Shown here: positions 14,901 to 63,399 of the stretch, piece by piece | Layout: each line of letters starts with the position of its first letter | Position numbering within the stretch: the first letter of the stretch is position 1 | From: Candidatus Poseidoniales archaeon | Lineage (GTDB): Archaea > Thermoplasmatota > Poseidoniia > Poseidoniales > Poseidoniaceae | Length of the DNA: 64,000 bases | Assembly (NCBI GenBank): GCA_003602415.1 | Contig: QQSK01000010.1 | Span: 66,691 to 130,690, forward strand | Direction of reading: 5' to 3' | The notes under the pieces: generated by a model | The model's database searches: none | What the model saw: only the letters and a program-made list of their open reading frames with translations | What the model was told of the DNA's origin: nothing | Program-made: the position numbers and the translations under genes

Positions 14901-16190
14901 ATCATTGCATCACCATTAGGCGATTCCAACCTAACGATCATGGTCACTAATTTGGGTACATCATCGGGTACGTTTGTTGCAGACATCAATAACTCAATGG
15001 TTAGCGATTGGTTTACTATAAGTGTTGACAAATTATCTCTGACTTTAGAATCTGGAGAATCTGGAAGTATAACCATATCAGCCAGAGAAGTTGCTACAGG
15101 AGCATCACTTACTGGCGAAGATTTGACCGTTACCGTTACGAGTACTGCTGACTCATCGGTTTCTGATATGATGACTATTGCAATCATCCCTCAAGTTGCC
15201 GATGGTATGATCACTGTGCTAAGCGATAATGACGAAGCACAACCAGGCCAAACAATTCATGGAAACGTAATTGTCACAAACTTAGGAACTGCTACTGATA
15301 CGATGAGGATTAACACTGTTGAGATGGATTGTAATCTTGACGATGTGGTTGTCGAACTGTCACCTAGTATGTCTTCCAGCCCTATTCCTTGGTCCTGCAC
15401 AATAGGGGATGAAGAGAATGCAGGAACTAAAGCCCTGACATTCAGATTGACTTCAGCCGCTCGTTCAAATATGGTAGTTACTGCAAGTGAATCATATACT
15501 GTTGAACCAATTTGGAGAGATGAAGTAATATCGTTCACTTTAGATCAAAACGATTTGAAATTCGATGAAAGCAATGAGCAACAAACCGTTTCACTAACTA
15601 TCTGTAATACAGCGAATACCTACGTTGAAGGTCAACTTGAGTTAGTTGGTAAAAATGAGCCACAAATGGATGGTGTTTTCTACCGTGCTGGAGAAACTGG
15701 AATAAATTCCACATACAGCCTTTCCAGCAACGGATGCCAAGATTTCAGACTGATGTTAACACCATTAAATCTAGATGGGTTTGAAGCTGTAATTATCATT
15801 CACTCGGTCAGCCAAGTTGAAGGTCAAACAGTGCGAGACGAATCTCCTGAATTACGGGCTGATGTCGCAGGACCTCACATGCCTCCAGATGGAATGAATC
15901 TTGGACTACTGGAATTGACAAACAAGAATTCAATTATTCTTTTATCAACAGGATGGGTATTATCCATACTACTTCTAGCATACATTAGATTGTTTAGAAA
16001 AACAGTTGAAGCCGAAGAGGAAGAGGAAGAAGAAGAAATCCCTCTAGGTCCAAACGAAGTAAGAATTGACGAATACAACAAGGTAACATGTTGCTCTTGT
16101 GAAGCAAGACTTGGAGTCCCTGAAGGCAGTGAACCTCCATTCAGATTTACATGCCCTAAATGTGACACTCGAATCAGAGTTGTAGAATGA
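11937..16190 (+). CDS. large secreted surface protein with seven-unit beta-propeller cassette and cytoplasmic zinc ribbon
   Basis: A 1417-aa type I membrane protein. A signal peptide (about 1-25) is followed by Ig-like/CARDB-type repeats. An Asn/Gly linker made of GGNNT units runs from about 200 to 232. Then come seven near-identical 48-residue units (about 236-570), each with a core SLAIDSNDNLHVTY and ending YDGSSW. A second short GGNNTGGN linker follows, then more beta-sandwich domains. A membrane helix (about 1332-1352) leads to an acidic run and a C-terminal zinc ribbon (CCSCEARLG ... FTCPKCDTRI) in the cytoplasm. Seven such units fit a seven-bladed propeller, usually a binding surface for glycans or proteins. 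Binding or degradation of particulate polymers is a guess. It is convergent with trmI with no gap. Confidence 0.85.
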   Translation: MSHRVNALILVMLMAIAPLVPLASADASIGLSTDVNHVILSPGETTNITLTVDNNGSSIESYSISVSGYDSVWEIIPSDTNISNVIPTFSASTTIAVRLSTTALPSDSGTLTITVTEPDNNISSQIDVLLSVQPQYLPAIDASMVGDNGLVSMAPGDDLNLTVMVTNNGNVNDTILLSVDQSPDLVGFWANWSSGASNNSGNNTSGNNTGGNNTGGNNTGGNNTGGNNTGGNLSQVWSTPVTLDNSTNNVGEQSSLAIDSNNHLHVTYLDYTSFNLEYVTYDGSSWSTPVSIDSTGDVGWQPSLAIDSNDNLHVTYYDLTYDNLEYMTYDGSSWSTPVSIDSTGDVGAMSSLAIDSNDHLHVTYLDNANGNLEYMTHDGSSWSTPVTLDNGINVGYDSSLAIDSNDKLHVTYQDEVYDNLEYVTYDGSSWSSPVTLDSTDDLGYHSSLAIDSNDNLHVTYLDYTNYNLEYMTYDGSSWSTPVSLDSTDDVGWQSSLAIDSNDNLHVTYLDNTNDNLEYMTHDGSSWSTPVSLDSTDDVGSDSSLAIDSNDNLHVTYYDYTNENLEYMFSSNSAGGNNTGGNSTGNSTNGIQRSAPQGWEVRFLDDSMDIMNPSEQRNAVLRISIPTDEDPGYYGFDLFAASVYGNFSVSTTIIVNITATHNLSFAHNAGQMLLPGENTTSTVDITSLSTSDGNWTWQTMVDSGDCSAQLMEYQTMIMADSNYELDILITAGVNTHVNDECHISLHGQLDSDTSISENYEFTVSVGEMWGLSMVLPTSIKLDVDQIETFNVVVNNDGTEEDTISLIGIDDEGVTFTNPAPVTLDRGSSVYVVMEVLIESSLVGNITLDFTISSTNSGTGSVNDSGIFEVKEFAELSMTGPSDNRMVIIPGQNSSITLNISNDGTKDLDLSASISGLPNGISVVKGLENVMLTAGESTDVELELMASSGMQPSSNLFTIAFDGGWDSTDLTIELQITDRNEVLIDSSGDSIIASPLGDSNLTIMVTNLGTSSGTFVADINNSMVSDWFTISVDKLSLTLESGESGSITISAREVATGASLTGEDLTVTVTSTADSSVSDMMTIAIIPQVADGMITVLSDNDEAQPGQTIHGNVIVTNLGTATDTMRINTVEMDCNLDDVVVELSPSMSSSPIPWSCTIGDEENAGTKALTFRLTSAARSNMVVTASESYTVEPIWRDEVISFTLDQNDLKFDESNEQQTVSLTICNTANTYVEGQLELVGKNEPQMDGVFYRAGETGINSTYSLSSNGCQDFRLMLTPLNLDGFEAVIIIHSVSQVEGQTVRDESPELRADVAGPHMPPDGMNLGLLELTNKNSIILLSTGWVLSILLLAYIRLFRKTVEAEEEEEEEEIPLGPNEVRIDEYNKVTCCSCEARLGVPEGSEPPFRFTCPKCDTRIRVVE
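12536..12630 (+). repeat. short tandem repeat coding an Asn-Thr-Gly-Gly linker
   Basis: About seven imperfect 12-15-base units of the type GGNAAYAAYACYGGW, translated as (G)GNNTGGNNT. The N-x-T sequons would be strong N-glycosylation sites in an archaeon. It directly precedes the 144-base repeat array, and a two-unit copy at 13655-13700 follows that array. Confidence 0.8.
12641..13640 (+). repeat. seven tandem 144-base coding repeats (propeller blades)
   Basis: Seven in-frame units, the first 147 bases and the others 144 bases. Each carries the almost invariant segment TTAGCGATTGATTCYAATGA, then CTGCACGTGACCTAT a few bases on. DNA identity between units is high even at silent positions, which suggests recent duplication or gene conversion. 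The array is flanked on both sides by GGNNT linker repeats. Confidence 0.9.
13655..13700 (+). repeat. downstream copy of the Asn-Thr-Gly-Gly linker
   Basis: Short GGTGGCAACAATACTGGTGG-type sequence followed by serine variants (NSTGNSTNG). It is a direct-repeat partner of the linker at 12536 and closes the propeller cassette. Confidence 0.7.
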
Positions 16191-17071: not shown

Positions 17072-20000
17072 ATGAAGACCGTACGTTACACCGCATTTTC
17101 GATAGTTGCTTTGATGCTTCTCAGCATTCTTGCCTCTTTTGGTGGACTAATTGCAGAAGATAATAACTCCACAATTGAACTTGAAGATGAACCAATTCAA
17201 TTTGAAGCAACAAGCCCTGGGCACCCTGTTTTTGCAGAATATATGGGAGCACATTGGTGTGGACCTTGTATTACAGCTACAAATAATTTGAAGAATTTGT
17301 ACAGCACTAACGGAGGAGGAGGAAGCCAATCCGCAGATTTCACTTTCGTATCATTTTGGGAATCTCAAACTACAGGATGGCCATCTGATTCCCCTATCAA
17401 TCGCAGATCCCACATTCAAAACGCTCCAGGATACACCGGCGGAATCCCAGTTACGGTCTTTGGTGATGCACCGTCCGGTACATACTACACAGTAGGTGGG
17501 CAGTCATACGACAGTTACTACCAGAATGGCGGAAACATGCAAAACGCAAACGATTACGCATTATCTGTAATTCAATCCGAAAACGGCAATAACATGGATA
17601 TCGAAATAACCGCTGTATACAGTGGTTCAGGAACAAAGAACGTGTACCTTTACGCAGCAGTAACTGAAGAAAAGGGATACGAGCCATACACAGCAGGTAG
17701 TGGCTCAGACCACCCACCAAATTTGTGGAAAAAGTGGCTACTCAACAGCGGAAATAGCGGATTCGAGACATTCACACTAACTGCAGGTACACCAGTGACC
17801 AAAACTTGGACTGTGCCAACTTCAACCGCAAGAGCGGTGAGCGGAATTAGTTCAGCTGACAACTTCCTAACAGTTGCAGCACTATTGGATGGAGACCACA
17901 CTTCTCATCGCAATGTGCTATCTGCCGGCGATTCTAACATGGCTCCAACAATCGATGTTGGTGTCCAGACCTTCACTACAAACAATCCATCCGCTCCAAA
18001 TGGTGGATACGTAAATGGAGATGTAATCAGTGTTGAAGCAACCATTGTCAACAATGGTGTTGACGCTTACAGTGATGGAGGAGATGTCAGATTCTTCTAC
18101 AAAGCAAATAACATGAAGACTTACGTAGGTTCTACACAATCTCTATCCAACTTTGCAAACAATGGTGATACTCAAACCTTCACAGGACAGATTGATACTT
18201 CGTCATTGCCAAGCAACGCTTATCAGTCTACATTTGGAGTTGAGATTTCTAACCTAGTTGCAGACAAGTCTGGAACTAACAATGAAGCTACAAATATCAT
18301 TCCTCATGACTTAGTGCCTGTTGCAAGAAAGGCTCAAGTCATTGGTAACAATGAGATTGAGAGAGGCACTAACTTCCTAATCGAAGCAAAGACCACTTTC
18401 AATGATGCGGTTGATATCAACACCTCTTTCTTCACATTCGATGTTGAGGTTTCACCTGCTGGAATGGGCCAGTGGATAAGTGGTGATTTGATTGTTGGAG
18501 GAGATCAAGTCTTCCAAGAAGGAACTTCCAACGAGCACCGCCAATACTTGGTCAAGCCAAGTATGAGCATGGGTGCAGGAGACTATGACATCCGTGTTCG
18601 CTCAATCGATTCAAGAGCACAAACAAGTGATTGGCAAATCACTCAAAATGGATTCGAGTTGAAGAACGCACTACCAACAATTACCTCTGAACCTGTACCT
18701 ACCGTAAAGGTTCAAACAAACACAATGGTATCTATTGCAAGCAATGTTGGCGACGCTGAAACTGATTTAGATCAACTAACAATCACTAGTAGCAGCCCTA
18801 ATTTCATCGATTGGCACCCTGCTACTGAAGAAATCGAAGTTTACTTCGAGAATATTAGATTCGTAAATGGTCAAGCAACAGCTTCTGGAATTGAAATTGC
18901 AGTTAATGATGGAACAGATACCGCATTCGGAACATTGCTATTCAACGTGATTGAAAATGGTCAACCACGTTGGGCTGGTGTTGAAAAGCAGTATGTTGAT
19001 GAGAATTCAATCTCATCCCTGTATCTTCTACCATATCTTTCCGATACTGACGAAAATGGAAATGTCGTCTCTTCTGAAGATCTGATGTTGGCTATTGTAG
19101 ACAACACCAATCCAGAATTGCTTGATATCTCTCTAAACGGATTTACACTGAACATGGAAACAATGGATGAAGATATCAACGGAGAAACTACAATCACTGT
19201 ACGTGCAAGCGATGGTGACCAATACTCCGACCAATTGATTACAATTGCAATCAACCCAATCAACGATGCTCCTCGTCTAGACTTGTCTGAACTTGAAGGA
19301 CTACGTTTGAAGGTTGGAACTCAGAAGGTTGTTTTCCTTAACGAGATTCTATCCGATGTTGATGGAGATGTTAGTCAAGTTACTGTAACTGCTAGCAACC
19401 CAGTGCCAGGCGCTGCTCGTGTAAACTTCCTAGACAATACACTGACAATGATTTGGGATACTGCTGGTTTGCAGACTGTCACAATCCAAGTTGAAGACCG
19501 CTATGATTCTAACATCTACACATTGGTAGTAGATGTTTATGACAGCATGCCTCTACTCGTAGGAGAAGGACCTGATGCTGATGTTTCAGTTAGCGTTTCT
19601 AACGTATACATTGGAGAGATTCCTGAAGTAACTATGTTCCTAAACAAGAACGACGTAACTATCACTTCTCTAACTACTCAATGGCAAATTTGTAACCTCG
19701 AAGTTTGTATGATTAATGAATTCCATGAGCACGACATTACAATGAAGAGCATTGGTTGGACATTCGATCCTTCAAATGGAGCGCTTCTAGAAGAAGGTAG
19801 AGATGGAATGGGAACTTTGTGGTATGTCAAACTGATGAAGATTTCTGCAATTGCATCAAATGGTGACAAGTTCGAATACAAGGAGCCTGCTTTGAAATGG
19901 ACCGCTAACGATATGCCACCAGGACCAGATTCTATGACTGAAGAAGAAGTCAAGGTATTGGTTGCTGAACTGGATGATGCTATCGCTACAATGAAGGCTC

Positions 20001-20464
20001 AAATCGAAGAACTTGAGAAAGGCACTGATGCTTACGATGAGGCTGTTTCAGAACTTGATGAGTTAGAAGCAGATAGAACCGAAGCTTGTGGTTACACCAC
20101 ATGTGTCGAACTAAACGCTAACGGAAATGGCCCTGTCGATGATGATGGACTAGACTTGACCGTTATCGCAATTGTAATCGGTGTTGTAATCATTGCATTG
20201 CTAGCAGGACTAATGTTCATGCGTGGAGGCAATGGTGGACAACCTGAGCAAATGGTCGATTGGGCTAATCAACTTCCAGCAAATGATGCTGTTGCAAATT
20301 CAATGTATGGAGGAGCTCAAGAGATTTTCCAGCAACCTGTCGCAGCACCTGCGCCTGTTGTAGCTCAAGTACCACCTGGCGCTCCACCACTTCCTGAAGG
20401 CGGACTTCCTGCCGGATGGACTATGGAGCAGTGGGCTTATTACGGCCACCAATACCAACAGTGA
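17072..20464 (+). CDS. surface protein with thioredoxin-like CGPC domain, cadherin-like repeats and GWTMEQW tail
   Basis: A 1130-aa type I membrane protein. After a signal peptide (about 1-28) comes a thioredoxin-like domain of the Omp28/redoxin kind with AHWCGPC at about 60-67 and GIPVTVFGD near 125. CARDB- and cadherin-like beta domains follow (for example INPINDAPRLDLSELEG near 730). A helical coiled segment (about 955-1000) leads to one membrane helix (LTVIAIVIGVVIIALLAGLMF, about 1029-1049). A Pro-rich cytoplasmic tail ends GGLPAGWTMEQWAYYGHQYQ. A thiol-disulfide role at the cell surface is likely from CGPC. The tail motif could be a protein-interaction tag. It is followed by lonB, which may handle membrane protein quality. 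Confidence 0.85.
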   Translation: MKTVRYTAFSIVALMLLSILASFGGLIAEDNNSTIELEDEPIQFEATSPGHPVFAEYMGAHWCGPCITATNNLKNLYSTNGGGGSQSADFTFVSFWESQTTGWPSDSPINRRSHIQNAPGYTGGIPVTVFGDAPSGTYYTVGGQSYDSYYQNGGNMQNANDYALSVIQSENGNNMDIEITAVYSGSGTKNVYLYAAVTEEKGYEPYTAGSGSDHPPNLWKKWLLNSGNSGFETFTLTAGTPVTKTWTVPTSTARAVSGISSADNFLTVAALLDGDHTSHRNVLSAGDSNMAPTIDVGVQTFTTNNPSAPNGGYVNGDVISVEATIVNNGVDAYSDGGDVRFFYKANNMKTYVGSTQSLSNFANNGDTQTFTGQIDTSSLPSNAYQSTFGVEISNLVADKSGTNNEATNIIPHDLVPVARKAQVIGNNEIERGTNFLIEAKTTFNDAVDINTSFFTFDVEVSPAGMGQWISGDLIVGGDQVFQEGTSNEHRQYLVKPSMSMGAGDYDIRVRSIDSRAQTSDWQITQNGFELKNALPTITSEPVPTVKVQTNTMVSIASNVGDAETDLDQLTITSSSPNFIDWHPATEEIEVYFENIRFVNGQATASGIEIAVNDGTDTAFGTLLFNVIENGQPRWAGVEKQYVDENSISSLYLLPYLSDTDENGNVVSSEDLMLAIVDNTNPELLDISLNGFTLNMETMDEDINGETTITVRASDGDQYSDQLITIAINPINDAPRLDLSELEGLRLKVGTQKVVFLNEILSDVDGDVSQVTVTASNPVPGAARVNFLDNTLTMIWDTAGLQTVTIQVEDRYDSNIYTLVVDVYDSMPLLVGEGPDADVSVSVSNVYIGEIPEVTMFLNKNDVTITSLTTQWQICNLEVCMINEFHEHDITMKSIGWTFDPSNGALLEEGRDGMGTLWYVKLMKISAIASNGDKFEYKEPALKWTANDMPPGPDSMTEEEVKVLVAELDDAIATMKAQIEELEKGTDAYDEAVSELDELEADRTEACGYTTCVELNANGNGPVDDDGLDLTVIAIVIGVVIIALLAGLMFMRGGNGGQPEQMVDWANQLPANDAVANSMYGGAQEIFQQPVAAPAPVVAQVPPGAPPLPEGGLPAGWTMEQWAYYGHQYQQ

Positions 20465-49338: not shown

Positions 49339-49875
49339 TCAAAGACCAGTCCAGGTTCGGAGAACCGCACCTGCACCGGATGATGGTACGTAGCTAACAG
49401 AGACGTACAAGTCTGTTACTGGGTTGCCATCAGCATCCGTAGTACGGATGTAAATGGTGTCTCCTGTATCGAAACTTGACTTCACAGCTCCACCTTCGCT
49501 TCCAACAGAGTCGGTGAAGGTCACCATACTGTCAGAGTTTCCTGGGTAGAATCCGTAAACGGTTGTTTCTGCTAGGTTGTATTGATTATTGATGATCTGT
49601 CCACTTGCATCAGTGTATTCCATTGTCACTTCAATAGCCTGAGTTGCTAATTCAACTTGGCTACCGGTTACAGTGATTCGATGGAACGGGTTATCTCCAC
49701 CAGCGGCTTGACTCGAATCGACATCGAATGTCATACGAGGTACACCCTTGGCAGATGTATCTGCAAGGCTAGATGCCCAGACGTAGATAACACCGGATAG
49801 TACCACAGTAATTGCAACCATTAGGATAGTTGCAATAACTGGGCTCACCGCTTGCTCATCTGCTTCTAGAATCAT
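49339..49875 (-). other. C-terminal pilin module of the giant protein (possible internal start)
   Basis: Codons 4509-4686 of the giant gene look like a complete archaeal prepilin of 178 aa. It begins MILEADEQ, then AVSPVIATILMVAITVVLSG, which fits Pilin_N (DUF1628) proteins that start with a few charged residues before AVSPVIGxxLMVAITV. The pilin head domain follows (about 4545-4686). It is either released by prepilin peptidase cleavage near Q4516/A4517 or made by translation from the in-frame ATG at 49875. No ribosome site better than GAAGAG is near that ATG. Confidence 0.6.
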
Positions 49876-52800
49876 CTCTTCAAGAGACTCTTCTTCTTCG
49901 TCACGGCGGCTCTGTAGAACCAATGCACTGACGAATAGTCCAGCAGCGCTGATTGCAATAATTGTAGGTGCGAACGATGGTACGTCAGCAGTTCCAATCA
50001 AGCGTACAACGACCGGTAATTCTTGTCCTGAAGCGGATGTAGTCTTACCGAATGTGCGTGGTTGTGCACAGTCTGTACCGTTGTCATCGGTGCTCATTAG
50101 GTTGTTACACCAATCTTGGTCTTCTAGCATTGGTCGGCGCTTGTTCTCAAGAGTGACTGCAGATGGGTTACCATCTTCGTCAACACTGGATGAACCAGAT
50201 TCACCAGGACAGCTCCATGCTTCTCCTTGCTCGCCGTTGCTGTCAATACATGCGTGGGCGTATGGGAAGGAGTAACCGAAGTAGCGGTCTGCTGGTGATG
50301 CGGACATGTCACAGTTCTCGTTAACACAAGTTAGGACATCGACCTCAACCCAGATTCTGTTGCTTGTAGAAGTAATGTAGACATAGTCTGTTACTTCGAT
50401 TGTCTCACCGTATGCAGGTGGTACAACGTACTGTGTTCCCAGAGATACATACTCTTCACCGTTAGGATCATCGCTGTTGTATCCGTTGCTGTGGAAGGTA
50501 ACTTCCAGCATGTGGTCGTAGTTGTACGGTCCTTCATCTCCACCGTGTCCGATAGTTACTGTTGTCGGAACGAAGGTCTTCGGCATAATGTTCGAAACTT
50601 CGTTGTAGTCGAATCCAGTTACATCGTCTAGGAAGTAGTCAGGGACATTCTCTGCGACGTTGTCAACACGTACGTACAGTGTAACACTGTCTTCACCTTG
50701 CTGATAGTTAGCAGTGCTCATACCGTAGTTTGGTATGTAGCTAGGTGCAGTAGCTGTGTCGTGTAGGTACAGTGTGATTGGACAGAATTCACCAGATAGA
50801 GGGTTCTTCTGGTGGATACCACCGTTGTTGAGGTAGTCAACTTCCCACTCAGGAGCGTTTGTTGTTGCATCCTTGATTAGGTCGAATGAAATCTCATCAT
50901 CGGTGATTGTTGCTGCGAAGTAATCTTCGTAGTCACATGTATCTGCCTTGACAATTGTCCAGACCAAGTCATTGTCCTCGTGATCGTTGTCATGCTTCAT
51001 AGCAGACAGATCGTAGGTCAAGTTGTCTACGTTCTCATCGTCCTCAGTTAGAGTGACCTTCCATGGGAAGTTTGGAACTTCTCCATTTCCGTCAGAGATA
51101 ACAACGCCTGCTTGGCGATCCCACTCTAGAACTTCAGGTGCATCGTTTACTGGAGTAACTGAGAAGTTAACTTCGTAATCCATTGCATCTGTGTTCTCTC
51201 CAATCCATGAGTATGCTAGACAGATGTCTTCTGTCATTCCAGAAGGCACACCTGGTGCTAGATATTCAGGGATGAAGGACGCAAGTCCTAGGTATAGGTT
51301 GTAACATCCGGTAACGGTCATTGGTCCGTACAATGGGTGAACAACATCGTAGTTGATCAACCATGTGTATGAGACACAGCTAGACTTGGAGTCTGTTGTG
51401 CGACCTAGGTAGGTGTTTGCACAGTATCCACCATCGTCATTCAGAGTCAATACAATAGTACACTCGCCACCAAGTTCGTTAGCAGCGTTCTCTGTGATTG
51501 TCAACTCATTGTTGGTCACAGTTACTGAGTATGCAGGACATGGGTCGTATCCACCAGTTGTGGTGTATCCGTTAGGGAAGATTTCGTCCCAGGTAGTATC
51601 GAATGATTCGACATCTACTCCATATGCTACAGACCAGAAGTCAGTGTAGTTCATGCTGTTGTAAACAACTGCATTTGCATCGATTGTACTGTCACAGCCA
51701 TCGTCTGAGCGAACTGCGGTAACCTTGTTTCCGCTAGAGTCCATGTACTCTTGGTACCAAACAGTACCACAGCCATTTTGTGCTAGTAGGTATGTTAGTA
51801 GAGTAACATCGTTCAGAGTTGGTAGCGTGTAAGAACCGTTAGGCGAAACTGCTCCAGGGTCACCAGTCATTGGTATGTCCTGGAATCCACCGTTAGCTGT
51901 TACTGCATCTCCTGCATCAGCGAATAGTGCTGCAACGCTTGAGTACTTCTTCTGTACCCAGTATGGTTCAACAGATACTTCATCACTCTTGATTGATGCT
52001 CCCCAAGTGTAAACTTGAGGTTGCTCGTTTGCCATGTCGTTACTTGCCATGTCAATGATGTAAGAGCCAGTAGCGTTAGCAGCAGATCCTAGGACCTTGC
52101 TGACACTTCCGAATCCTTCGTCAAGAACATTCAGGTTACCTGCACCATCATCAGCGAAGACTGGCATACAGTCTGCACGCTCGGTGTTACAGATAATCGG
52201 TGCATCGTTAACATTCACTACAGTGAATGTAATCGTTGTACTGTCAGTCAATCCATGACTGTCTTCAACTGCGAAGTGGAAGACATAGGAACCGAACTGG
52301 TCATTATCTGGTGTGATGGTCATTGTCTGAGTTGACAGACTGCTATCTAGAAGCATTGTTGGGCTTAGAGATGGGTCTGTGTCATCAGCAACGGTCCAGG
52401 TCAGAGTGTTCTCCTCATCCTGTACATCGTCAGCCTTGTCAGTTAGTGTTAGTGTGTAAGCACCACTGTCTTCGTTAACTGTGATGTCGATCAAGTTCTG
52501 GATAACTGGGCACGCACGCTTGATGTCAATTGACTCAGCAACGTTTGTGCTCATGTCTACAGATGTGATGGTTCCCCAGTCTTCTGCACATGCTGCGTCG
52601 ACCTTGACAGAGATGTCGTAGGTCTTAGCATCGCTTGGAGTGTTGGAACCAACGTAGCTGCGGTAGATTAGCAAGTGGTTGCGTAGGTCATCGCCTTCAG
52701 CAAGGTCGCTGTGTCCCATCAATAGGGTCAACTCGTCTGTGAAGGTTTGGCCGGTTGCACCAGTTGCAACAGTCTGGTCAGGGTGAACAGATTCTACTGC

Positions 52801-55800
52801 GCCAGTGGACTCGTCTTGAACGATTACAATCATTCTAACAGTGCTAGATGGTTCACCGATACAATTCCATGGAATTGAGATTTCAGTGTCTGTGTCTCCA
52901 GAGTGTCCGATGAAGGAAGATAATCCTCCACAGGAGTTGGTGACGTCAGACCATCCGGTGAATCCGTTGACCTTTAGTCCGGAGTTACCGTTGCCTCCAT
53001 CCTCTGCCCAGAAGACATAGTCTGCTGCGAATGGCAGAGAGTGAGAGACATACCAGCTTTGTCCGGTAGTGTCTCCACCAGTACTCGAATCGATGTAAAT
53101 CTGCAAGTCAGCAGATCCCATGTCAACGCCTGTTAGAGCCATGTATAGGTTGTTAGCATCCCATGTAGCAAGGAAGTCCTCGCCAGCATCGTCGCTTGAC
53201 ATTACACCAGGCATAGCATCATCTGAAGGATTCTTCATGTTTCCATACCACTCTTCCATGTCGCCATCAGCGTTCATGTAAGGAGCACGGTATGCAGGTG
53301 AAACATATGCTGCTTGTGCACCGTCAGTAGACTGGATTAGCAGTCCAATGTCAGTTGCTGCAGCGCCCTTATGGGTGATGTCTAAGTCTAGCAAGTTTCC
53401 TTCATGGATAACTGCAGTTGCATCTACTACTAGTTTAGAAGCATCAACTGTGTTTCCAACAGAGGTTACTGTTACGTAAGAACCAGCGTTGATTTGAGTT
53501 GTTGAGTCTGCCCATGTGACGTTCTCAACAGATCCTTCTGCACCACCATCTGCCATTAGAGCAGTTGTTGCGTCAGAATCTCCACCGTTCCAGCGGAAGT
53601 CTACAGCATCTGTGTTCAATCCGTACATACCAGATGTATCCATATCAGTTGCATCGAAAGTTGATGCTCCTGTTACGTACATTGCGGAACCTGCACTGTC
53701 AGCGATTAGTTCAGCACCGTCGACGACAACATCTGTGTCTTCAGCGTATGCAGCGTAATCGCCACCAGATAGGATTGCTCCACCAGATAGTGTCATTTCT
53801 CCACCATACTGTTCGATAGAGGTACCGAATCCGGAGACAGATGTTCCATCAAGTGTGATTTCATCATTTGTACCGACTACGTTAACACCAACAGATGAGA
53901 ATCCAGAACTGCTTCCTGTGGAAACAGTTACTGTACCGTACATCCAAGAGTGGATACTACAGTGGTAATCGTATGTACCTGCTGTAGTGAATGTCTTGGT
54001 GTATGTAGATCCAAGGTTCATTGTTCCGCCAGATCCCCATGAGGAATCGTTAGCAGTAACATCGTGAGCCTCTCCTACACCACTGTTGTTGTAGTACTCG
54101 TTAGCTCTCCAGCGAATTGTGTCGCCTTCGTTGATGTTGACGTTTTGTGGTGCGAATGCGTTAGCATTGATTTGAACTGAGGATACAGCTCCACCACTAC
54201 CGCCTACTGCTGTTAGAGTAGAACCAGAGTCTACCAGGTCACAGCCATCGGTTACGATTGCATTCTCCATTACACTGATTGAGTTTCCACCAGCGTTAAC
54301 TGCTGAGGAACCACAGTCTTCAGCCCATAGACCAATTGCTGCTGGAGCATTGCGGCCTGCGGATTGAGAGATATCGTTGTTGGTAACGTTAGCATTGTAT
54401 CCGAACTGAACTCCATCAATCAGAATTCCACCATCTGCATCGACTAGTGTGTTACCGTCGATTACACCGTATCCATCCTTTACATAGATACCAGCCTTGG
54501 AAGAGTCTCCTCCTCCATTGATGACGTTGTTCATGATGTTCCAATCTAGTGCACCACGCATGTAGATAGCTTCTTGTGAATTGCTGAAGGTGTTTCCATC
54601 AATCAATAGATCAGAAGTTGTTCTATCTTGTGTGTAGATACCATAAGATGGGTTAGAGGAACCTTTGAACTCGTTGTTCTTGATTTCCACACCATCTGAG
54701 TATGAGTTCAAGGAGAACCATACATCGATTGTCTCGGAATTGATGAACTCGTTGTTCTCAATAATTGCATCATCAGCACCCCAGAAGGACTGGTTGTATG
54801 AATAATAGAATCCAGTTCTTGTCAGGTAAACACCAACACCACAGTTCTTCATGACGTTGTTAATGATGGTAGTGTTAGCACCACCAGCATTCAAACACAT
54901 GTCTTGGAAAGCAACCGATCCAGTGTTAGGCATTGTTCTGAAGTGAGTGAATGTGTTGTTTTGGATATCGAAGAAATCCGCTTCCCAAACATATGCACTC
55001 CATGAGGACTTGTAACCGAATGTTGTAACAATGGTTGCTAGTCCAGCAATTGTTGAGTTCTGAACATCAGGTACGACATCGTTCCATCCGTTGTATCCAA
55101 TCTTGATACCTTGTGCATCTTCACCGTCTACTGCAGTTGAAACCCACTCTGTGTTGTGAGCATACAAGCGAGCACCGTATGGGTATGTAGACCAGATGTT
55201 CATTGAATCATAGTACTTGTAAGATCCAGTAGATAGAATTGTACTTCCATTCAGAGAAACATCAGTGTTTCCATCGATGTACCAGTAACCTACGTCGAGC
55301 ATTACAACCTTGTTCTCCATATTGGTTGGTGTAGCACCGTAGTATCCGTACTCTTTCATACCAGAGGAATATTGTCTTCCAGTAGAACTAGATGTACTCA
55401 ATCCAGGACAGTTCTGAACGTAAGCGAACGAACTTGAACTGAAACTGTAACAGACACGAACTTCAACAGCGTTTGTTAGAGCCATGTTGTGAGAGTTACC
55501 GCTAGCATCAGATAGAGACAGACTGTCAAATGCATATCTGAAGTCTGCTGCGTTATCGCTAGCTGAATTGTAGTAATACGATCCAACCTTAGCAACGGTT
55601 ACAGCTTCATATCCAGATAGGCTCATTGTAGACAATCCAGATAGATCTACTCTTTGAGTTACGAAAGTCATGTCCAAAGCATCACCAGATGAGTCGGTTA
55701 CGGCAGAGCCTGTAACTTCTCCATCAGCGTTCTTCAATACAACGTTTGCACCGGAAACTGGGTTAGAGTCAGCCAGAACATTGACATCAAGATGACGCAT

Positions 55801-58800
55801 TCTGTTGAATATTCCATTTCCTGTTACCTGAACAGATGTTGAGTCGACTGTTCCTTCAATGAAGTCTACATTTGCAGAGCCAGAGATTACGAAATCCTTA
55901 GTGTTTGCAAATGTGCTGTCAATCAGTGTTAGTGCACCAGAACCTGCTGTATCAATACCAACTGCGTTGGTTCCAAGTGTCATTCCACTCCAAGAAATAT
56001 CCTTAGATGTAGAAGAACCGAACTTGATACCTGCTCCAGAAGAGCTTGCAATTGAACCGGTTAGGTCACCTGCAAGGTCCTTGATGTAGTATACACCAGC
56101 AGTAGAAGTACCTGAAATGTCAACATTTTCCAATGCTACGTTTCCAGATGCACCTGCTCCTGCTAGAACACCATATGTTCCACCAGTGACTGCTAGGTCA
56201 GTTACTGTTGCAGCGGATGAACCTGTGATTTCCAAACCAGATGTTACTGGGCTTGTTACTGTGACATCATCGAATTCAACTGCAGCGAAACTACCACCGA
56301 TTTCGATACCATTGTCAGCACCGGTAATTGTACCGGAGCTGAACGAAGGAGTACCGGATTCACGAGCGTAAACACCCATGTCAGATGGATCGTTTCCAGT
56401 CCTTGCAACAACTTCCAATCTATCTTGGTAGTTGTCAGCACGGTTGTGAAGTACGTCAACATACATGGTTGCACCAGTAATGTTGCTTCCTGAAACATCA
56501 ACTGCAGGGTATGCTAGACGAGCTTCGTCTCCTGGACTGTTGTAGTAGGAGTAAGCGTAGTCAAGACATACGTTGTAGTATCCCCATAGACCGTTGCGGC
56601 CTTCTGGTGGCTCGTAAACACCATTAAACATTGAACTTGGAGAGTAGTATCCCCAGTAGTGCATTGGATAGTAGGTGTTTGGTGTGTTATCTGTGTCTTC
56701 CCAGCGGAAACCGAAGTTTGCTGGATAGTCGTAATTAGAACCGCCACTTGTGTAACCGCCGTAGGCGATTAGGTAGTACATGTATTGGTAATCATACCAC
56801 TGTGTGTATGAGTAACCATAGTAGTTACAATGCCATGATGGAGCACCTGCTGCACCACCCATTGAACCGTCATAGTATCCATCATCAGTAGACTTGGTGA
56901 CGTTCCAGGTGTTACCTAGGTCGTCTGTCAACTCGATGTTCATACGGTCGTAGATCATGTAGTACTTCGAAGTAGCGTAATTGTATCTTGGGTGAGCGTT
57001 ACCACCTGCGTAGATGGAGTTGAATCCAACTTGTAGGTAGTCATCTCCACCAGCCAAGTAAGGGCTCATGTCGATTGCGTAAGTAGTCCAACCAGTGCTT
57101 TCACCAGACAGTCTTGTACTGCGGTAAATTGTTGGTAGGCTCATACCACCGTATACATCCACACCAACATCGTTGTCGGTTAGAGTAAATCCGTTCACGT
57201 TAGGAGCTGCGTTCTTTGAGAACATACCAACTGCTGCATTCTTGACAACGATGTTGTCAATGGTTGCTGCCGCTGAATTCTCGAACATAATTCCAATACC
57301 TGTTTGTGCTGCATTCATGATTGTGGAATCATCCCAATCTAGAGTGCCGCCGTTAACGTATACTGTTGCTTCGTTAGCAGCAGCGCCAGCGTTACCGTAG
57401 ATCATTGCACCGTTTGAAACGGTCATTGTACCAGAATCAAGATTGATTCCGCCAGCAACGTCACGGATAACTCCGTCGTTAACAATTAGGTTTCCTCCAT
57501 CCATATCCAAGTCAAGTGGGTATGTGCTAGAAGACGCCTTCAGTGTACCAGTATCGGTTGATGTAGATTCAAGAGTCAAAGAACCACCGTTAGAGATAGT
57601 TAGCTTTGGACTGTTGGTTGCGTCAGATGCGACACGGAATACGTTACGCATTACAACGTTACAATCATCGATGTTTAGATCACCAGTCATTGTTACCTTA
57701 CCTTCCCATGTGAAGGTGTTAGTACCACCAGATGCAACTGTACCATCATATCCTAGTGCTGCTTCTGTGTTTGTCAGAAGGTATGCACAGTCCATGTTAG
57801 TACCGTTTAGGGATACCGGAGCAGGCTCAAGACGTAACTCGATTGAGTCACCGACACCGAAGCTACCTGGATACCAGGAGTCGGTGGTCATTGTCTCGTT
57901 TTGTCCAGATGGACCCCATGCTGCAAGGTTGTGGTCGGTGTAAGAATCACCAGCGTCGTTTCCAGACAATACCCATGCGCTTGCTTCACCATTTGCATCG
58001 GTCTTGTGTGTACCAACTGTGAAGAGTGCAGCACCTGCGTCCACTGTGGTCGCTTGTACTGTGTGCCCTTCCTTGTAATCCTTAGTACCGTCACCAAGCA
58101 GCTTGAACACCTTTACGGTTGCTAGTCCACCGAAGTAGATAGCACCAGATGAACTGGATGAAACATCACAGTCGCTTGCTTGTAGACAATCTGTACCATC
58201 TTGGTCGACATCGATTAGAACGATGCGTCCGTTGGTAGATGCCTTGGACATCTTGTCGTATGAAGATGGCATAGAAATGCTTCCTTCACCGATTGTTACA
58301 GCGGAGTTACGTGCATAAACTGCGTTCATAGTTCCAGTGTAAGTTGCGTCAACGTTAGACAATACGATGTTGTTTGGTGATGCAGAGTTGGAACAAGAAC
58401 CAGAAATATAGTCGCTTGTTACTGTGTCTGCAACTACCTTGTAGCCACATCCAGATACTGCAATTCCGTCAGTATCCCAGTTTGCACCCATGATTCCATC
58501 GCTGCTCGGTGAGTTACCTAGGATGGTCAATGCACCGATAGTGATGTCATCCAAAGTTGGAGCAGTTCTTGTCATAGTCAAATCGCCAGCAGTTAGCGTA
58601 TCGATTGATGCGCTAGTTCCGGATGGACCTGCTGCAGTGGAAGATGTTCCACCAGGAGCGATTGATACGTCTGCACTTCCCCAGTCTACATCTTCAAGTT
58701 CTAGAGAATCTAGAGCCATCAGTGATGCATCAGAGTATCCGTCAGCATCCATGTTGTAGACATAGATTGTTGAACCAGTTCCTGAGCCATCTGCTCCCAA

Positions 58801-61800
58801 AACAGTTCCAGTCTGAGTGGAAGTTGTGGTTGCAGTAACGTTGCTGATCCACACGTTTGCGAAGTCAACATTCACTAGGTTAACAAGTGACTCGTCGATG
58901 TCAACGTTCTCCATGATTAGAGAACCTGTTGAACTACCTGGGTAGTTGATGACTGCGCCACCCCAACTGTTACCGTCGGAGTTACAATCATTCATTTCAC
59001 CATCACGTAGTGTTACATCTGAATCTTCAGCAAGATCGAAACAAGCATCGCTTGCATCATTAATCTCGAAGTCGGACATGGTCATGATTGTACCTTGTCC
59101 AGAGCCGTGCTTGAATGCGGTTCCAACATTGCTGAATGTCACGTGGTCCATTGTGAAGTTACCAACGTTAGCATTGCTTGAAGGAGAGGAGCCGTGGCGG
59201 CTTCCTGCTGCAATCGCTGCATCGCTTGTGTTAGCGAAGTTCACGTAAGACATCTCGTGGCGGTCATCTGTTCCAGTGCTGCACGCAGCAGTGAATGCTA
59301 GACCCTTCCATGTTGCACCTTGCTGACCCTCGAAGAGAATCGGGTTGGTTGAGTTACCTGTTGCGGTAAACTCACTGCAACTTCCATCGAAAGATAGACC
59401 CTTTCCACTTGCGACTTGAATCACGACACCTGGTTCGATAGTTAGATCGTCACCAATCGACAAGTATCCGCTTGCGGAACTTGGATTGATTCTAATCGGT
59501 GAATCGATTAGGGACCATGTTGTTGGTTGCGTAATATCTGCTGAAACATCAGTACCCTTTCCTTCGAATGGAATGACACGTGTACGCACTGAACAATCTA
59601 GAGCGCTGTTGTCATAGCAGTAGTAGCTAGAGTAGTAACCCCACCATGGAGCAATGTTACCTGGCTTGCTGTATGAGCTGCTGCTGTATGGCAAGTTTGG
59701 CATATTGCTGTACCAAGATGTGATGGAACGCTCCAGAGAGGTAGAACCATCAGCCTTCAGGTACATGTTACCCATTCTACCGATGTGGACACGGTTCTTA
59801 GAATCTGAACCGTTGTATTCAGTACCGAAGTAGTCGAATACGAATCCGTCTGGTAGATCGATGTTAGCGTTACATCCAGACTTGTAGCTGTTCCAGTAGT
59901 AGGAAGAGACACAGTAGTATCCGTATGGTCTACCGTTGCTTGCGCCTGCAATTGCAGTGTCGTAAGTTGGTAGTTCAGATACACCTAGGTCGAATGTTTC
60001 CCAAGAGTGTCCACTGCTATCAGTACCGATACGGTAGTTGACAGAGTGAGGGTTAGCACCATTGATGTAACCTTGGTCAGTACGTAGGGTAGCACCCTTA
60101 GTTCTGGTTTGGTCTTGGTATCCAACTGTTGCGTAATCGTAAGTTGCCTCACAATTAGAATCGTATTGGAACTCAATCTCATTGGTTACGTCATACATTA
60201 TTACTTGGAATGTACATACATCGTAACTGGAGTAACCTAAGTCGTGCCACTCGACGACGAACATCTTGTTCGGGTCACCAACTTCGAAAGAGTTGGTTGA
60301 AGTGGTGTTAGTGTTGACTCCGGTTGCTGCAGTACTGATATCAGTAACTGTCACGTAGTACTCAACAGTTGAACCTCTTTCAAGGTCTTCTAGAGTAGTA
60401 GACCAGTCACAAGACGCTGAAACACAAGCAGCACGTGTGCTTGAAGGCGACAGAACTGCGCTATTCCAGTTGTTCACAGTACCATCTGCATCAGTGATAC
60501 GATAGTACATTGTTGGACCAACGCCAGCAGAAGTGCTTACGTTGATTCCGGATGGAGGTTCTCCACCATCAGCAATTGTGAACTTGAATGTGCGGTCTCT
60601 TGAGTGAGAGTCGCGCATTGCAGAGTGATCAACTTCTGGCGCAGTGGTATCTGGTTCAGGAGCAACCTTTGCTACCTTGTAGACCACATCACCGCTCGAT
60701 GCTTGAGGTCCGTAGTAACCTCCACCTAGAGAGAATCCTGACCAGCGGTAGGATGCACTGTAGATGTAGAAGTAACCAGAGGTACAGGTTGGGTTAGAAC
60801 TTGTTGAACGGAAGAAATAGTACCATCCGTTTGTTCCAACACACATCCAGTTAGCCTTGGAACTGCTGTAAGTAGCGTTCCAATCGAACTTACCCATTGT
60901 TCCAGTAATGTCACCTGGGATATCAATAAGGAAAGCCTTAGTGTATCCATAGGTAGATCTCTGGTTCGCAGTTGTACCGGAAGTCAATGGTTCTTCGATA
61001 CCGGTTTCGGTACCTAGACCAACCATTGCCCAAGCGTTCTTTGAACTATCATATAGGTAAATCAAGTTCATTCCTGGACCGTCATCAGCTGACATTGCTA
61101 GATATCCACCAGTGTCATCCTTGTGCATGTTCATTGTACCAGACAAGGTTCCACCCAATCCATTGTATCCGGAGGATGGGGTTGTTGTCCACTTCATCTT
61201 CCACTGAGAGTAGAAGTAGTAGCTGGTGGTGTAGAAACAAGAGTTGCTTCCAGTTCCACAGTCAGATGTGTCAAATTCGAAGACATACTCGTCAGAATCC
61301 TCGTAGTAAGTCATCTGTCGATCGAATGTCTTTGCAGTGCTTGTTGTTGTGTAAGCACGGACATCTGTCATTGAAATGGTCATCTTCTTGTCGTCTCCAG
61401 CGTTGTCTACATCATCAACGAAGAACCAGTATGGGCTGGTTGGAGCTGTTGCAGTACTTGGACTGCCAGATCCACCAGATGGGCTCGTTGCCATGTTGGG
61501 AGTAGAGGCAGCGTCCTGATATGCCCAGAAGTACTTGACATAGTCACCTGTTGAAATGCTTCCAGTTGTTGCACGGAATGAACAATCGGTAGCACTAGAT
61601 CCGCAGGTACCGATTGAGGTAGCCTTTACAGCGGTGTATGAACCATTGTTAATCGAGTAGTGCAAGTGTGGAGCACCAGATGAAGTTGTATCAATTCCTC
61701 CGTTATCCTTTAGGTTGGTGAAGAATGTTCTTTCGCCTTCCTTGTAGGATGTTATTCCTGTGTATGGAACGAATCCATCAATAGGAGGAGTTGTATCACT

Positions 61801-63399
61801 ACCACCAGAGTAAGTTACCTGGATGTAACTGTTTGTACTTCCAGAACTGTACGTGTAGTAGTAAATTGTAGTAGCAGTGGTGTACCTTGCACTCATACCA
61901 ACTGTTCCACCGTTAGATAGAGCGTTGATGATGTAGTTGTGGCTACCAGTAGTAGAGGAACATGCTGTTCCGCTGCTGCTACATAGGTTTGCAGTCTTCC
62001 AACCAGTACCTGTAGAGTAGGTACCTGCAGATGCTGAGTTCCATGCGGAACTGATCATCTTTCTTTGCGTGGTTCCACCATATCCGTAGGATAGTGAACT
62101 CAGTAAAGAGTTGGAACAGGATGCTGAAGCAATAGTCCAACTGTATCTAGCCGCTGTTCCACAAGTCTCCATTACGACTGCAGTGATTGCGTTAGAAGAG
62201 TAAGAGTAGCCGTAGCGTACATACTGCTTCCAATCGATTGCGTCGACTGTAGCTCCAGTAGGTAGAGCGTTAGAACTTGTGAAAGTGTACTTGTTCCATG
62301 GTAGGTAGTAGATACGTGTGCTTGTTCTGCGCATGTCACCATATGCAGAGTTGTAACAGTATCCATAGTAGGTATAACAATACCCACCACCGCTTCTCAT
62401 GACCTTAATTGATGGGTCGATAGCCAATGGGAACTGGCGTTCTTCGTCCATCAACCAATCTGCATCAACTGCAGTGGTCAGAATTACTGTGGTTCCGAAA
62501 ACCTGTACGAAGTAAGTTGCGTGGTATGGCTCATCTGCATCCCTCTCAATTACAACAGGTACTGGAATAGTTGCTAGCAACTCTCCAGTTTCCAAGTTTC
62601 GGATTGTCAACTCGTCTTGAGTTTGAGTCATTTCCTCACGTAGAACATCGTCCCCTAGGAATAATCCATATCCTGCTGGAAGGCGCATTTGCTCGGTTAC
62701 ACCGAAGAATGCTACGTTCTCATCAAGAACTGGGCGATCTCTAATCACAAGGTTTTGCTTCAATTCGGTTTCACCAACGGTGTAATCCAAATCGAATCCT
62801 TCTGCAAGAGGATAACGTAGAACGTTACCACCAACAGAAATTCCATCTTGTGATGGAGAGGTCATGTACGGCATTGGCATGGTGCCAGTCTCGTCAAGCG
62901 TCATTACCATTGGATTCATTCCAGTGACGATTGGGTCCACATTCGGGTGGACCATTACCGAGACACCGTTGGCAGCTTCAGCAGCAAAGGAAACCTCGTA
63001 GAGGCTTTCTGTTACTTCCCAACCATCAACGGTTGCCTTGATGTTAAGATCAATCTCCTCCCAGGAGCCGATACTGCTCATGTAGTGCAGTGGCTCGGAA
63101 GCAGTGATCAGAGTGGTCTTTCCGTCATCTGTACGGAAGGCCTTCTGATTCATTGACCTCATTCCCTCTAATTCAGAGGTTTCATCGTATTCATATTGTG
63201 CAGGCTCGTAGACTTCTGGTAGAGCGAAGTAGTCATCGCTTTCTTCGTTCGCAATTGCGAGCTCAGATTCTACCTGAGGGGCGTCGTTCTGTACGAAGTT
63301 GGTCATTGTCATGCCAACCATTAGTGCACAGAGCAATAGGGCAATTCCTACGCCACCCATTACTGTCTTTTTATTCGTGTTTTTGTTTCCCAACATCAC
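49339..63399 (-). CDS. giant secreted parallel beta-helix protein with cupredoxin domain and a C-terminal type IV pilin module
   Basis: A 4686-aa protein. An N-terminal membrane anchor/signal (about 12-34) leads to a pro-like domain, Tyr/Ser-rich beta domains (about 330-1280) and a long right-handed parallel beta-helix region (about 1285-3070 and beyond). Inserted in it is a cupredoxin domain (about 3072-3157) with the ligands H3112, C3147, H3150 and M3153 (YHCSIHSWM). Next come a CBM9/DOMON-like domain (about 3365-3517, MNADGDMEEWYG) and cadherin-like domains (INDAPI- and VNDAPE-type). Near the end a membrane helix (about 4476-4495) is followed by SRRDEEEESLEEM, then a pilin N-terminal segment EQAVSPVIATILMVAITVV from 4515 and a pilin-like beta domain to the end. 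The start is GTG 63399 (AAGGAG 8 bases upstream) or ATG 63396. Confidence 0.85.
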   Translation of the reverse strand: MMLGNKNTNKKTVMGGVGIALLLCALMVGMTMTNFVQNDAPQVESELAIANEESDDYFALPEVYEPAQYEYDETSELEGMRSMNQKAFRTDDGKTTLITASEPLHYMSSIGSWEEIDLNIKATVDGWEVTESLYEVSFAAEAANGVSVMVHPNVDPIVTGMNPMVMTLDETGTMPMPYMTSPSQDGISVGGNVLRYPLAEGFDLDYTVGETELKQNLVIRDRPVLDENVAFFGVTEQMRLPAGYGLFLGDDVLREEMTQTQDELTIRNLETGELLATIPVPVVIERDADEPYHATYFVQVFGTTVILTTAVDADWLMDEERQFPLAIDPSIKVMRSGGGYCYTYYGYCYNSAYGDMRRTSTRIYYLPWNKYTFTSSNALPTGATVDAIDWKQYVRYGYSYSSNAITAVVMETCGTAARYSWTIASASCSNSLLSSLSYGYGGTTQRKMISSAWNSASAGTYSTGTGWKTANLCSSSGTACSSTTGSHNYIINALSNGGTVGMSARYTTATTIYYYTYSSGSTNSYIQVTYSGGSDTTPPIDGFVPYTGITSYKEGERTFFTNLKDNGGIDTTSSGAPHLHYSINNGSYTAVKATSIGTCGSSATDCSFRATTGSISTGDYVKYFWAYQDAASTPNMATSPSGGSGSPSTATAPTSPYWFFVDDVDNAGDDKKMTISMTDVRAYTTTSTAKTFDRQMTYYEDSDEYVFEFDTSDCGTGSNSCFYTTSYYFYSQWKMKWTTTPSSGYNGLGGTLSGTMNMHKDDTGGYLAMSADDGPGMNLIYLYDSSKNAWAMVGLGTETGIEEPLTSGTTANQRSTYGYTKAFLIDIPGDITGTMGKFDWNATYSSSKANWMCVGTNGWYYFFRSTSSNPTCTSGYFYIYSASYRWSGFSLGGGYYGPQASSGDVVYKVAKVAPEPDTTAPEVDHSAMRDSHSRDRTFKFTIADGGEPPSGINVSTSAGVGPTMYYRITDADGTVNNWNSAVLSPSSTRAACVSASCDWSTTLEDLERGSTVEYYVTVTDISTAATGVNTNTTSTNSFEVGDPNKMFVVEWHDLGYSSYDVCTFQVIMYDVTNEIEFQYDSNCEATYDYATVGYQDQTRTKGATLRTDQGYINGANPHSVNYRIGTDSSGHSWETFDLGVSELPTYDTAIAGASNGRPYGYYCVSSYYWNSYKSGCNANIDLPDGFVFDYFGTEYNGSDSKNRVHIGRMGNMYLKADGSTSLERSITSWYSNMPNLPYSSSSYSKPGNIAPWWGYYSSYYCYDNSALDCSVRTRVIPFEGKGTDVSADITQPTTWSLIDSPIRINPSSASGYLSIGDDLTIEPGVVIQVASGKGLSFDGSCSEFTATGNSTNPILFEGQQGATWKGLAFTAACSTGTDDRHEMSYVNFANTSDAAIAAGSRHGSSPSSNANVGNFTMDHVTFSNVGTAFKHGSGQGTIMTMSDFEINDASDACFDLAEDSDVTLRDGEMNDCNSDGNSWGGAVINYPGSSTGSLIMENVDIDESLVNLVNVDFANVWISNVTATTTSTQTGTVLGADGSGTGSTIYVYNMDADGYSDASLMALDSLELEDVDWGSADVSIAPGGTSSTAAGPSGTSASIDTLTAGDLTMTRTAPTLDDITIGALTILGNSPSSDGIMGANWDTDGIAVSGCGYKVVADTVTSDYISGSCSNSASPNNIVLSNVDATYTGTMNAVYARNSAVTIGEGSISMPSSYDKMSKASTNGRIVLIDVDQDGTDCLQASDCDVSSSSSGAIYFGGLATVKVFKLLGDGTKDYKEGHTVQATTVDAGAALFTVGTHKTDANGEASAWVLSGNDAGDSYTDHNLAAWGPSGQNETMTTDSWYPGSFGVGDSIELRLEPAPVSLNGTNMDCAYLLTNTEAALGYDGTVASGGTNTFTWEGKVTMTGDLNIDDCNVVMRNVFRVASDATNSPKLTISNGGSLTLESTSTDTGTLKASSSTYPLDLDMDGGNLIVNDGVIRDVAGGINLDSGTMTVSNGAMIYGNAGAAANEATVYVNGGTLDWDDSTIMNAAQTGIGIMFENSAAATIDNIVVKNAAVGMFSKNAAPNVNGFTLTDNDVGVDVYGGMSLPTIYRSTRLSGESTGWTTYAIDMSPYLAGGDDYLQVGFNSIYAGGNAHPRYNYATSKYYMIYDRMNIELTDDLGNTWNVTKSTDDGYYDGSMGGAAGAPSWHCNYYGYSYTQWYDYQYMYYLIAYGGYTSGGSNYDYPANFGFRWEDTDNTPNTYYPMHYWGYYSPSSMFNGVYEPPEGRNGLWGYYNVCLDYAYSYYNSPGDEARLAYPAVDVSGSNITGATMYVDVLHNRADNYQDRLEVVARTGNDPSDMGVYARESGTPSFSSGTITGADNGIEIGGSFAAVEFDDVTVTSPVTSGLEITGSSAATVTDLAVTGGTYGVLAGAGASGNVALENVDISGTSTAGVYYIKDLAGDLTGSIASSSGAGIKFGSSTSKDISWSGMTLGTNAVGIDTAGSGALTLIDSTFANTKDFVISGSANVDFIEGTVDSTSVQVTGNGIFNRMRHLDVNVLADSNPVSGANVVLKNADGEVTGSAVTDSSGDALDMTFVTQRVDLSGLSTMSLSGYEAVTVAKVGSYYYNSASDNAADFRYAFDSLSLSDASGNSHNMALTNAVEVRVCYSFSSSSFAYVQNCPGLSTSSSTGRQYSSGMKEYGYYGATPTNMENKVVMLDVGYWYIDGNTDVSLNGSTILSTGSYKYYDSMNIWSTYPYGARLYAHNTEWVSTAVDGEDAQGIKIGYNGWNDVVPDVQNSTIAGLATIVTTFGYKSSWSAYVWEADFFDIQNNTFTHFRTMPNTGSVAFQDMCLNAGGANTTIINNVMKNCGVGVYLTRTGFYYSYNQSFWGADDAIIENNEFINSETIDVWFSLNSYSDGVEIKNNEFKGSSNPSYGIYTQDRTTSDLLIDGNTFSNSQEAIYMRGALDWNIMNNVINGGGDSSKAGIYVKDGYGVIDGNTLVDADGGILIDGVQFGYNANVTNNDISQSAGRNAPAAIGLWAEDCGSSAVNAGGNSISVMENAIVTDGCDLVDSGSTLTAVGGSGGAVSSVQINANAFAPQNVNINEGDTIRWRANEYYNNSGVGEAHDVTANDSSWGSGGTMNLGSTYTKTFTTAGTYDYHCSIHSWMYGTVTVSTGSSSGFSSVGVNVVGTNDEITLDGTSVSGFGTSIEQYGGEMTLSGGAILSGGDYAAYAEDTDVVVDGAELIADSAGSAMYVTGASTFDATDMDTSGMYGLNTDAVDFRWNGGDSDATTALMADGGAEGSVENVTWADSTTQINAGSYVTVTSVGNTVDASKLVVDATAVIHEGNLLDLDITHKGAAATDIGLLIQSTDGAQAAYVSPAYRAPYMNADGDMEEWYGNMKNPSDDAMPGVMSSDDAGEDFLATWDANNLYMALTGVDMGSADLQIYIDSSTGGDTTGQSWYVSHSLPFAADYVFWAEDGGNGNSGLKVNGFTGWSDVTNSCGGLSSFIGHSGDTDTEISIPWNCIGEPSSTVRMIVIVQDESTGAVESVHPDQTVATGATGQTFTDELTLLMGHSDLAEGDDLRNHLLIYRSYVGSNTPSDAKTYDISVKVDAACAEDWGTITSVDMSTNVAESIDIKRACPVIQNLIDITVNEDSGAYTLTLTDKADDVQDEENTLTWTVADDTDPSLSPTMLLDSSLSTQTMTITPDNDQFGSYVFHFAVEDSHGLTDSTTITFTVVNVNDAPIICNTERADCMPVFADDGAGNLNVLDEGFGSVSKVLGSAANATGSYIIDMASNDMANEQPQVYTWGASIKSDEVSVEPYWVQKKYSSVAALFADAGDAVTANGGFQDIPMTGDPGAVSPNGSYTLPTLNDVTLLTYLLAQNGCGTVWYQEYMDSSGNKVTAVRSDDGCDSTIDANAVVYNSMNYTDFWSVAYGVDVESFDTTWDEIFPNGYTTTGGYDPCPAYSVTVTNNELTITENAANELGGECTIVLTLNDDGGYCANTYLGRTTDSKSSCVSYTWLINYDVVHPLYGPMTVTGCYNLYLGLASFIPEYLAPGVPSGMTEDICLAYSWIGENTDAMDYEVNFSVTPVNDAPEVLEWDRQAGVVISDGNGEVPNFPWKVTLTEDDENVDNLTYDLSAMKHDNDHEDNDLVWTIVKADTCDYEDYFAATITDDEISFDLIKDATTNAPEWEVDYLNNGGIHQKNPLSGEFCPITLYLHDTATAPSYIPNYGMSTANYQQGEDSVTLYVRVDNVAENVPDYFLDDVTGFDYNEVSNIMPKTFVPTTVTIGHGGDEGPYNYDHMLEVTFHSNGYNSDDPNGEEYVSLGTQYVVPPAYGETIEVTDYVYITSTSNRIWVEVDVLTCVNENCDMSASPADRYFGYSFPYAHACIDSNGEQGEAWSCPGESGSSSVDEDGNPSAVTLENKRRPMLEDQDWCNNLMSTDDNGTDCAQPRTFGKTTSASGQELPVVVRLIGTADVPSFAPTIIAISAAGLFVSALVLQSRRDEEEESLEEMILEADEQAVSPVIATILMVAITVVLSGVIYVWASSLADTSAKGVPRMTFDVDSSQAAGGDNPFHRITVTGSQVELATQAIEVTMEYTDASGQIINNQYNLAETTVYGFYPGNSDSMVTFTDSVGSEGGAVKSSFDTGDTIYIRTTDADGNPVTDLYVSVSYVPSSGAGAVLRTWTGL

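Follow-up and report, generated by a model that had tools for sequence, protein, structure and literature searches.

Does the long gene in this stretch really run from a giant secreted protein into a type IV pilin and, if it does, would the pilin be cut free? The window, by which we mean the whole 64,000-nucleotide stretch analysed, comes from the Poseidoniales, uncultured archaea more abundant than any others in the plankton of the ocean surface (PMC6461757). The gene occupies the reverse strand as a single frame (Table 1), which opens at a GTG and probably has its true start at the next codon, the ATG at 63396, behind AAGGAG. A 19-residue hydropathy scan detects an N-terminal hydrophobic segment, a helix near the C-terminus (TM1) and a further helix at residues 4517–4543, and no others. 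The C-terminal order is a TM helix, an RR-acidic linker, AVSPVIATILMVAITVV, a second TM helix and a beta-rich head. An earlier note on this DNA had described a single uninterrupted frame of 4686 aa with this domain order and an in-frame pilin, and all three are borne out by the open reading frame, the profiles and the homologues.

Table 1. Positions in the window of the giant gene, its segments and the candidate peptidase gene; the short paralogues are given by locus.
Feature	Position	Strand	Basis or remarks
Giant fusion gene	49339..63399	(-)	4686 codons; GTG start; 0 internal stops
N-terminal hydrophobic segment, residues 12–31	63307..63366	(-)	Hydropathy; lysines precede; signal peptide or signal anchor
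Beta-solenoid stretch, residues 1385–1700	58300..59247	(-)	AlphaFold pLDDT 91, pTM 0.89; Foldseek
Cupredoxin domain, residues 3075–3159	53923..54177	(-)	PF00127, 31.7 bits (cut-off 21.2)
Ig-like domain Big_9, residues 3631–3726	52222..52509	(-)	PF17963, 29.3 bits (cut-off 23.6)
TM1, residues 4476–4495	49915..49974	(-)	Hydropathy; homologue alignment; AlphaFold helix (low confidence); out-to-in
Cytoplasmic linker, R4498–Q4516	49852..49908	(-)	RR, then acidic; 17–21 aa among homologues
Predicted prepilin-peptidase site, A4517|V4518	49846..49851	(-)	Invariant A; filament starts; −1 rule
Type IV pilin H-domain, residues 4517–4546	49762..49851	(-)	PF07790, TIGR02537; 98% pairwise identity (n = 29)
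Pilin head domain, residues 4547–4686	49342..49761	(-)	Beta-rich; AlphaFold; Foldseek
Archaeal prepilin peptidase homologue (FlaK/PibD type), 326 aa	24435..25415	(+)	D26, GGAD160; profiles
Short paralogue, 632 aa	L063 3-1898	(-)	
Short paralogue, 554 aa	L064 277-1938	(+)	C-terminal TM anchor

The label of beta-helix protein, originally applied to the giant as a whole, is fair for residues 1385–1700, which AlphaFold models with high confidence as an all-beta solenoid. The best Foldseek matches of this stretch are weak (E 0.06 or worse) and nearly all are parallel beta-helix proteins, including polygalacturonases, the PfbA adhesin and tailspikes. Elsewhere the protein has cupredoxin and Ig-like domains. 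The cupredoxin domain carries amicyanin-like C-x2-H-x2-M ligands, C3147 among them; it is weak in a relative from the other family (L057) and gave no Pfam detection in L056.

Both relevant profiles match the C-terminus above their curated cut-offs, namely Pilin_N (PF07790; residues 4516–4578, 35 bits against 25.2) and arch_flag_Nterm (TIGR02537; residues 4514–4545, 39.3 bits against 20). These profile matches put it in the archaeal type IV pilin family. The pilin head in this family is defined as an Ig-like beta-sandwich behind a helix of about 35 residues. An AlphaFold model of the last 245 aa, of moderate confidence (mean pLDDT 63), contains TM1, a helix of 32 residues and, behind it, a beta-rich head of about nine strands. 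Archaeal T4-type filaments are the top Foldseek matches of the head and helix, the first being the Cuniculiplasma filament 8rey, followed by archaella (best E 4e-4, with TM-scores of only 0.23–0.36). The pilin start falls at residue 4517 of 4686, behind another TM helix, and there is no short N-terminal class III leader. Judged from its sequence, then, the whole giant falls outside the conventional prepilins, since a giant secreted protein takes the place of the leader.

We searched 61 genomes, including that of the window, with the last 247 aa of the giant as query. The fusion is present without a stop in 35 of them, which are independent assemblies from two families of Ca. Poseidoniales (22 from the same genus as the window, nine from further genera within that family and four from the second family), and one of which is a single-contig genome of 2.06 Mb (G036). 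Matching records that carry a name are MAGs or single-cell genomes assigned to Ca. Poseidoniaceae. The earlier note had reasoned that the fusion would be an artefact if relatives carried a stop between the helix at 4495 and M4509; no stop occurs there in any of the 35 fusion genomes, and the fusion recurs in other Poseidoniales genomes, including those of the second family. Full-length giants of 4513–4710 aa, drawn from both families, align colinearly from end to end. An ectodomain query (residues 3700–4440) matches exactly the same 35 genomes as the pilin query, and a giant without a pilin, sought among the 61 genomes as an ancestral state, was not found. By these comparisons the fusion is genuine, of long standing and subject to selection. 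An internal start at Met4509, which would yield a separate pilin, is unsupported because this residue is not conserved (Leu in L017 and L024, with others varying). A second family of giants, of 5146–5478 aa (L091, L092, L093 and L094), has the same TM1-linker-pilin ending.

The proposed topology, in which TM1 leads through a cytoplasmic linker to a second TM helix, gains support from two directions. An RR pair immediately follows TM1 in nearly all homologues and the acidic loop is short (17–21 residues), which fits an out-in-out hairpin. Furthermore, paralogues of 554–632 aa, found in three of the 61 genomes, all from the genus of the window, lack the hairpin and join the pre-TM1 domain straight to the pilin head, suggesting that these two domains lie on the same side of the membrane. 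In the short paralogues the head is followed by an acidic stretch and then, in L064, by a C-terminal TM anchor. They support the view that the pre-TM1 domain and the head form a workable pair without membrane segments between them, and they hint, short of proof, that the two may bind each other after cutting.

Constraint on the fused region is concentrated in the H-domain. Among 29 homologues the mean pairwise identity is 98% over its 30 residues, compared with 72% for TM1, 61% for the linker and 56% for the head. Third codon positions within the H-domain vary at most sites, and the conservation therefore reflects selection at the protein level as opposed to recent ancestry. The H-domain of the fusion is 92% identical to class A of the free pilins encoded in the same genomes and 55% identical to class B. 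A genome of the same family (G030) encodes free pilins of 622 and 701 aa with large extra regions after the H-domain (L065 700-3570 (-) and L066 875-2740 (-)), one of which adjoins a normal pilin.

The cut had been placed at Q4516|A4517, but it probably lies one residue later, and A4517|V4518 is the best-supported predicted site. In the Iho670 (5kyh, 3j1r) and Cuniculiplasma (8rey) filaments the mature chain starts at the residue aligned with V4518, archaeal prepilin sites need G, A or S at −1, and A4517 is invariant; processing sites in Haloferax read RA|VS (PMC4371748). On the assumption of an A|V cut, the −1 Ala is invariant in 36 homologues, a set found through a motif that includes this Ala, although the alignment also shows Ala. 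The −3 position in the same 36 is always D or E. A charged residue at −2 has been called critical in archaea (PMC4371748); the giant has Q there, and its homologues are neutral in 33 of 36 cases (Q18, S6, A4, T3, M2, R2, E1). Free pilins of the order mostly carry the −3 acid too and some have Q or N at −2, so the rule is not strict within the order and the idea that Q at −2 breaks the site is weakened. The neutral −2 residue weakens the case for cutting and is still compatible with it.

A candidate for the cutting enzyme is encoded 24 kb from the giant within the window. This membrane protein is matched in order by Peptidase_A24 (PF01478) and Arc_PepC_II (PF06847), both just below their cut-offs (24.7 bits against 26.5 and 28.1 against 29.9, respectively). 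The PF01478 cut-off is exceeded in two relatives, in one of them through an orthologue. The window protein has the motifs AAWLD26HKERRVPN and GGAD160CK, with the second Asp in a GxHyD-type motif, and both Asp residues are invariant in nine aligned true homologues from the two families, a count that leaves out L041 and L046 (wrong ORF). No solved FlaK/PibD chain was matched by sequence to the window protein. All 35 fusion genomes have the peptidase, as do nine that lack the fusion; the remaining 17 have neither (Fisher p 6e-9, relatedness ignored). This co-occurrence is permissive rather than proof, since an enzyme acting on pilins at large would be expected to give this pattern. In several genera the giant and the peptidase share a contig, with about 20–65 kb between them, in a neighbourhood of housekeeping genes (HAD, CinA, DNA polymerase small subunit). 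Near the peptidase gene are also genes for a 1417-aa protein with NEW3/Ig-like matches (11937-16190 (+)) and a 1130-aa protein with no Pfam match (17072-20464 (+)). The giant gene itself sits among housekeeping genes and not beside pilus genes; elsewhere in the genome, contigs C5 and C12 carry two T2SSE-type ATPases accompanied by split PilC-like proteins, and contig C20 has an archaellum cluster. Archaellum genes of Poseidoniales have been proposed to serve adhesion.

Processing by a FlaK/PibD-type peptidase is, on the sequence evidence, the most likely mechanism, and we give a probability of roughly 0.55 to the reading in which the peptidase separates giant and pilin and the pilin is then used as a subunit. 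The giant gene would be a two-product precursor. Sec would very probably insert its parts in order: the N-terminal signal, the outer domain of about 4,450 residues, TM1 as a stop-transfer segment, the loop, the H-domain TM helix and the outer head. The acidic cytoplasmic loop of 17–21 residues would present A4517|V4518 to the peptidase, which would cut there as it does in ordinary pilins. The giant would remain anchored in the membrane through TM1, and the released pilin, equimolar with it, would be able to join a filament of free pilins whose H-domain is nearly identical. More speculatively, the paralogues suggest that the head might bind the pre-TM1 domain non-covalently, thereby coupling giant and pilus. 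In favour of cutting and use are the conservation of the fusion, the identity of the H-domain, the invariant −1 Ala, the filament starts, the hairpin-less paralogues and the presence of the peptidase and of T4P-type ATPase and PilC-like genes; in the model, the head and long alpha1 helix also appear to resemble archaeal T4 filaments. Against it stand the neutral −2 residue and the lack of adjoining pilus genes. In addition, selection may preserve the fusion because its parts stay joined, and the co-occurrence of the peptidase may merely reflect the needs of free pilins and archaellins.

The main rival is that the hairpin stays uncut, the pilin helix and TM1 forming a two-helix anchor with the flanking domains outside and the pilin part either kept out of filaments or only binding pilus-assembly components in the membrane. 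The conserved length (17–21) and acidity of the linker fit this, as do the mostly neutral −2 residues, contrary to the charged-residue rule (PMC4371748), the retention of the fusion in every ectodomain-bearing genome and the occurrence of the head outside a pilin context in the short paralogues. Nevertheless, a plain anchor should drift as TM1 has, yet the H-domain shows 98% conservation and matches a class of free pilins at 92% identity; the −1 Ala does not vary and the modelled head seems to resemble filament subunits. We rate the uncut hairpin as rather unlikely. A variant put forward in the earlier note, in which the uncut pilin tethers the ectodomain to a pilus, is improbable as written: the mature N-terminal helices of pilins pack on each other within the filament (PMC7347861), and an attached TM helix with 4,500 residues should not fit among them. 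Less probable than the uncut hairpin is that the domain is cut and not polymerised, remaining membrane-bound and acting for the giant as a minor pilin-like partner or assembly primer. Archaeal genomes do have numerous genes for predicted peptidase substrates whose role is not known (PMC4371748), and the gene lies among housekeeping genes, outside a pilus locus, but the near identity of its H-domain with the one in a class of free pilins points to a shared packing environment. Finally, an assembly or frameshift error joining the giant to a neighbouring pilin gene can be dismissed. Nothing was found in its favour, and it is ruled out by 34 relatives and by colinear full-length homologues: the same junction, free of stops, occurs in 35 genomes from two families, among them independently assembled MAGs and the single-contig genome.

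If the pilin is cut off as predicted, its precursor would have a leader hundreds of times the usual length, and a prepilin peptidase would split a protein with two membrane spans into two functional products. A fuller version, which we offer tentatively, has the peptidase acting as a polyprotein processor that yields an anchored giant and a 1:1 pilin; this pilin would polymerise with free pilins while its head is bound to the last outer domain of the giant, so that an adhesin of 4,500 residues is coupled to the pilus or sheathes it. The conserved giant-pilin gene is a concrete and testable candidate for particle attachment in Poseidoniales.

The end of the giant is like known archaeal type IV pilins and adhesion filaments (Haloferax PilA, Iho670 5kyh, Cuniculiplasma 8rey) in its AVSPVIA-type start, its −1 Ala and, in the model, its long N-terminal helix and beta-rich head. 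In known archaeal precursors, however, the pilin lies near the N-terminus behind a short leader, whereas the 'leader' of the giant is a secreted protein of 4,517 residues that includes a TM helix of its own. Bacterial modular pilins such as PilB and PilC of Streptococcus sanguinis also combine a pilin and an adhesion-type domain in one gene (PMC10191384), but known grafts are on the mature pilin side, while the giant has its large domain on the side of the leader, where cutting would remove it. PilY1/PilC and DUF2341 pilus-tip adhesins are likewise large surface proteins functionally tied to a T4 pilus (PMC4858521, PMC10191384); these are separate, non-pilin proteins, in contrast to a covalent fusion at the level of the gene and away from pilus loci. 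In agreement with the original remark that no protein of this kind had been described, we found no description of a C-terminal pilin fusion in the open-access literature.

The closest likeness within the phylum is to large Thermoplasmatota Pilin_N proteins (frames of 574–2376 aa), which share an H-domain on a very large protein. Considered as further C-terminal fusions, these long frames from other lineages of the phylum were rejected, the H-domain being N-terminal in 16 of 16 examined (in L148 an open frame extends 450 codons upstream, and the start was judged from sequence); only the Poseidoniales giants showed a C-terminal H-domain. The very large N-terminal Pilin_N proteins are likely to be large minor pilins or adhesins. 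They are numerous in Thermoplasmatota outside Poseidoniales (L141-L156), with H-domains such as GVSEVVGTILL and frames of up to 2376 aa.
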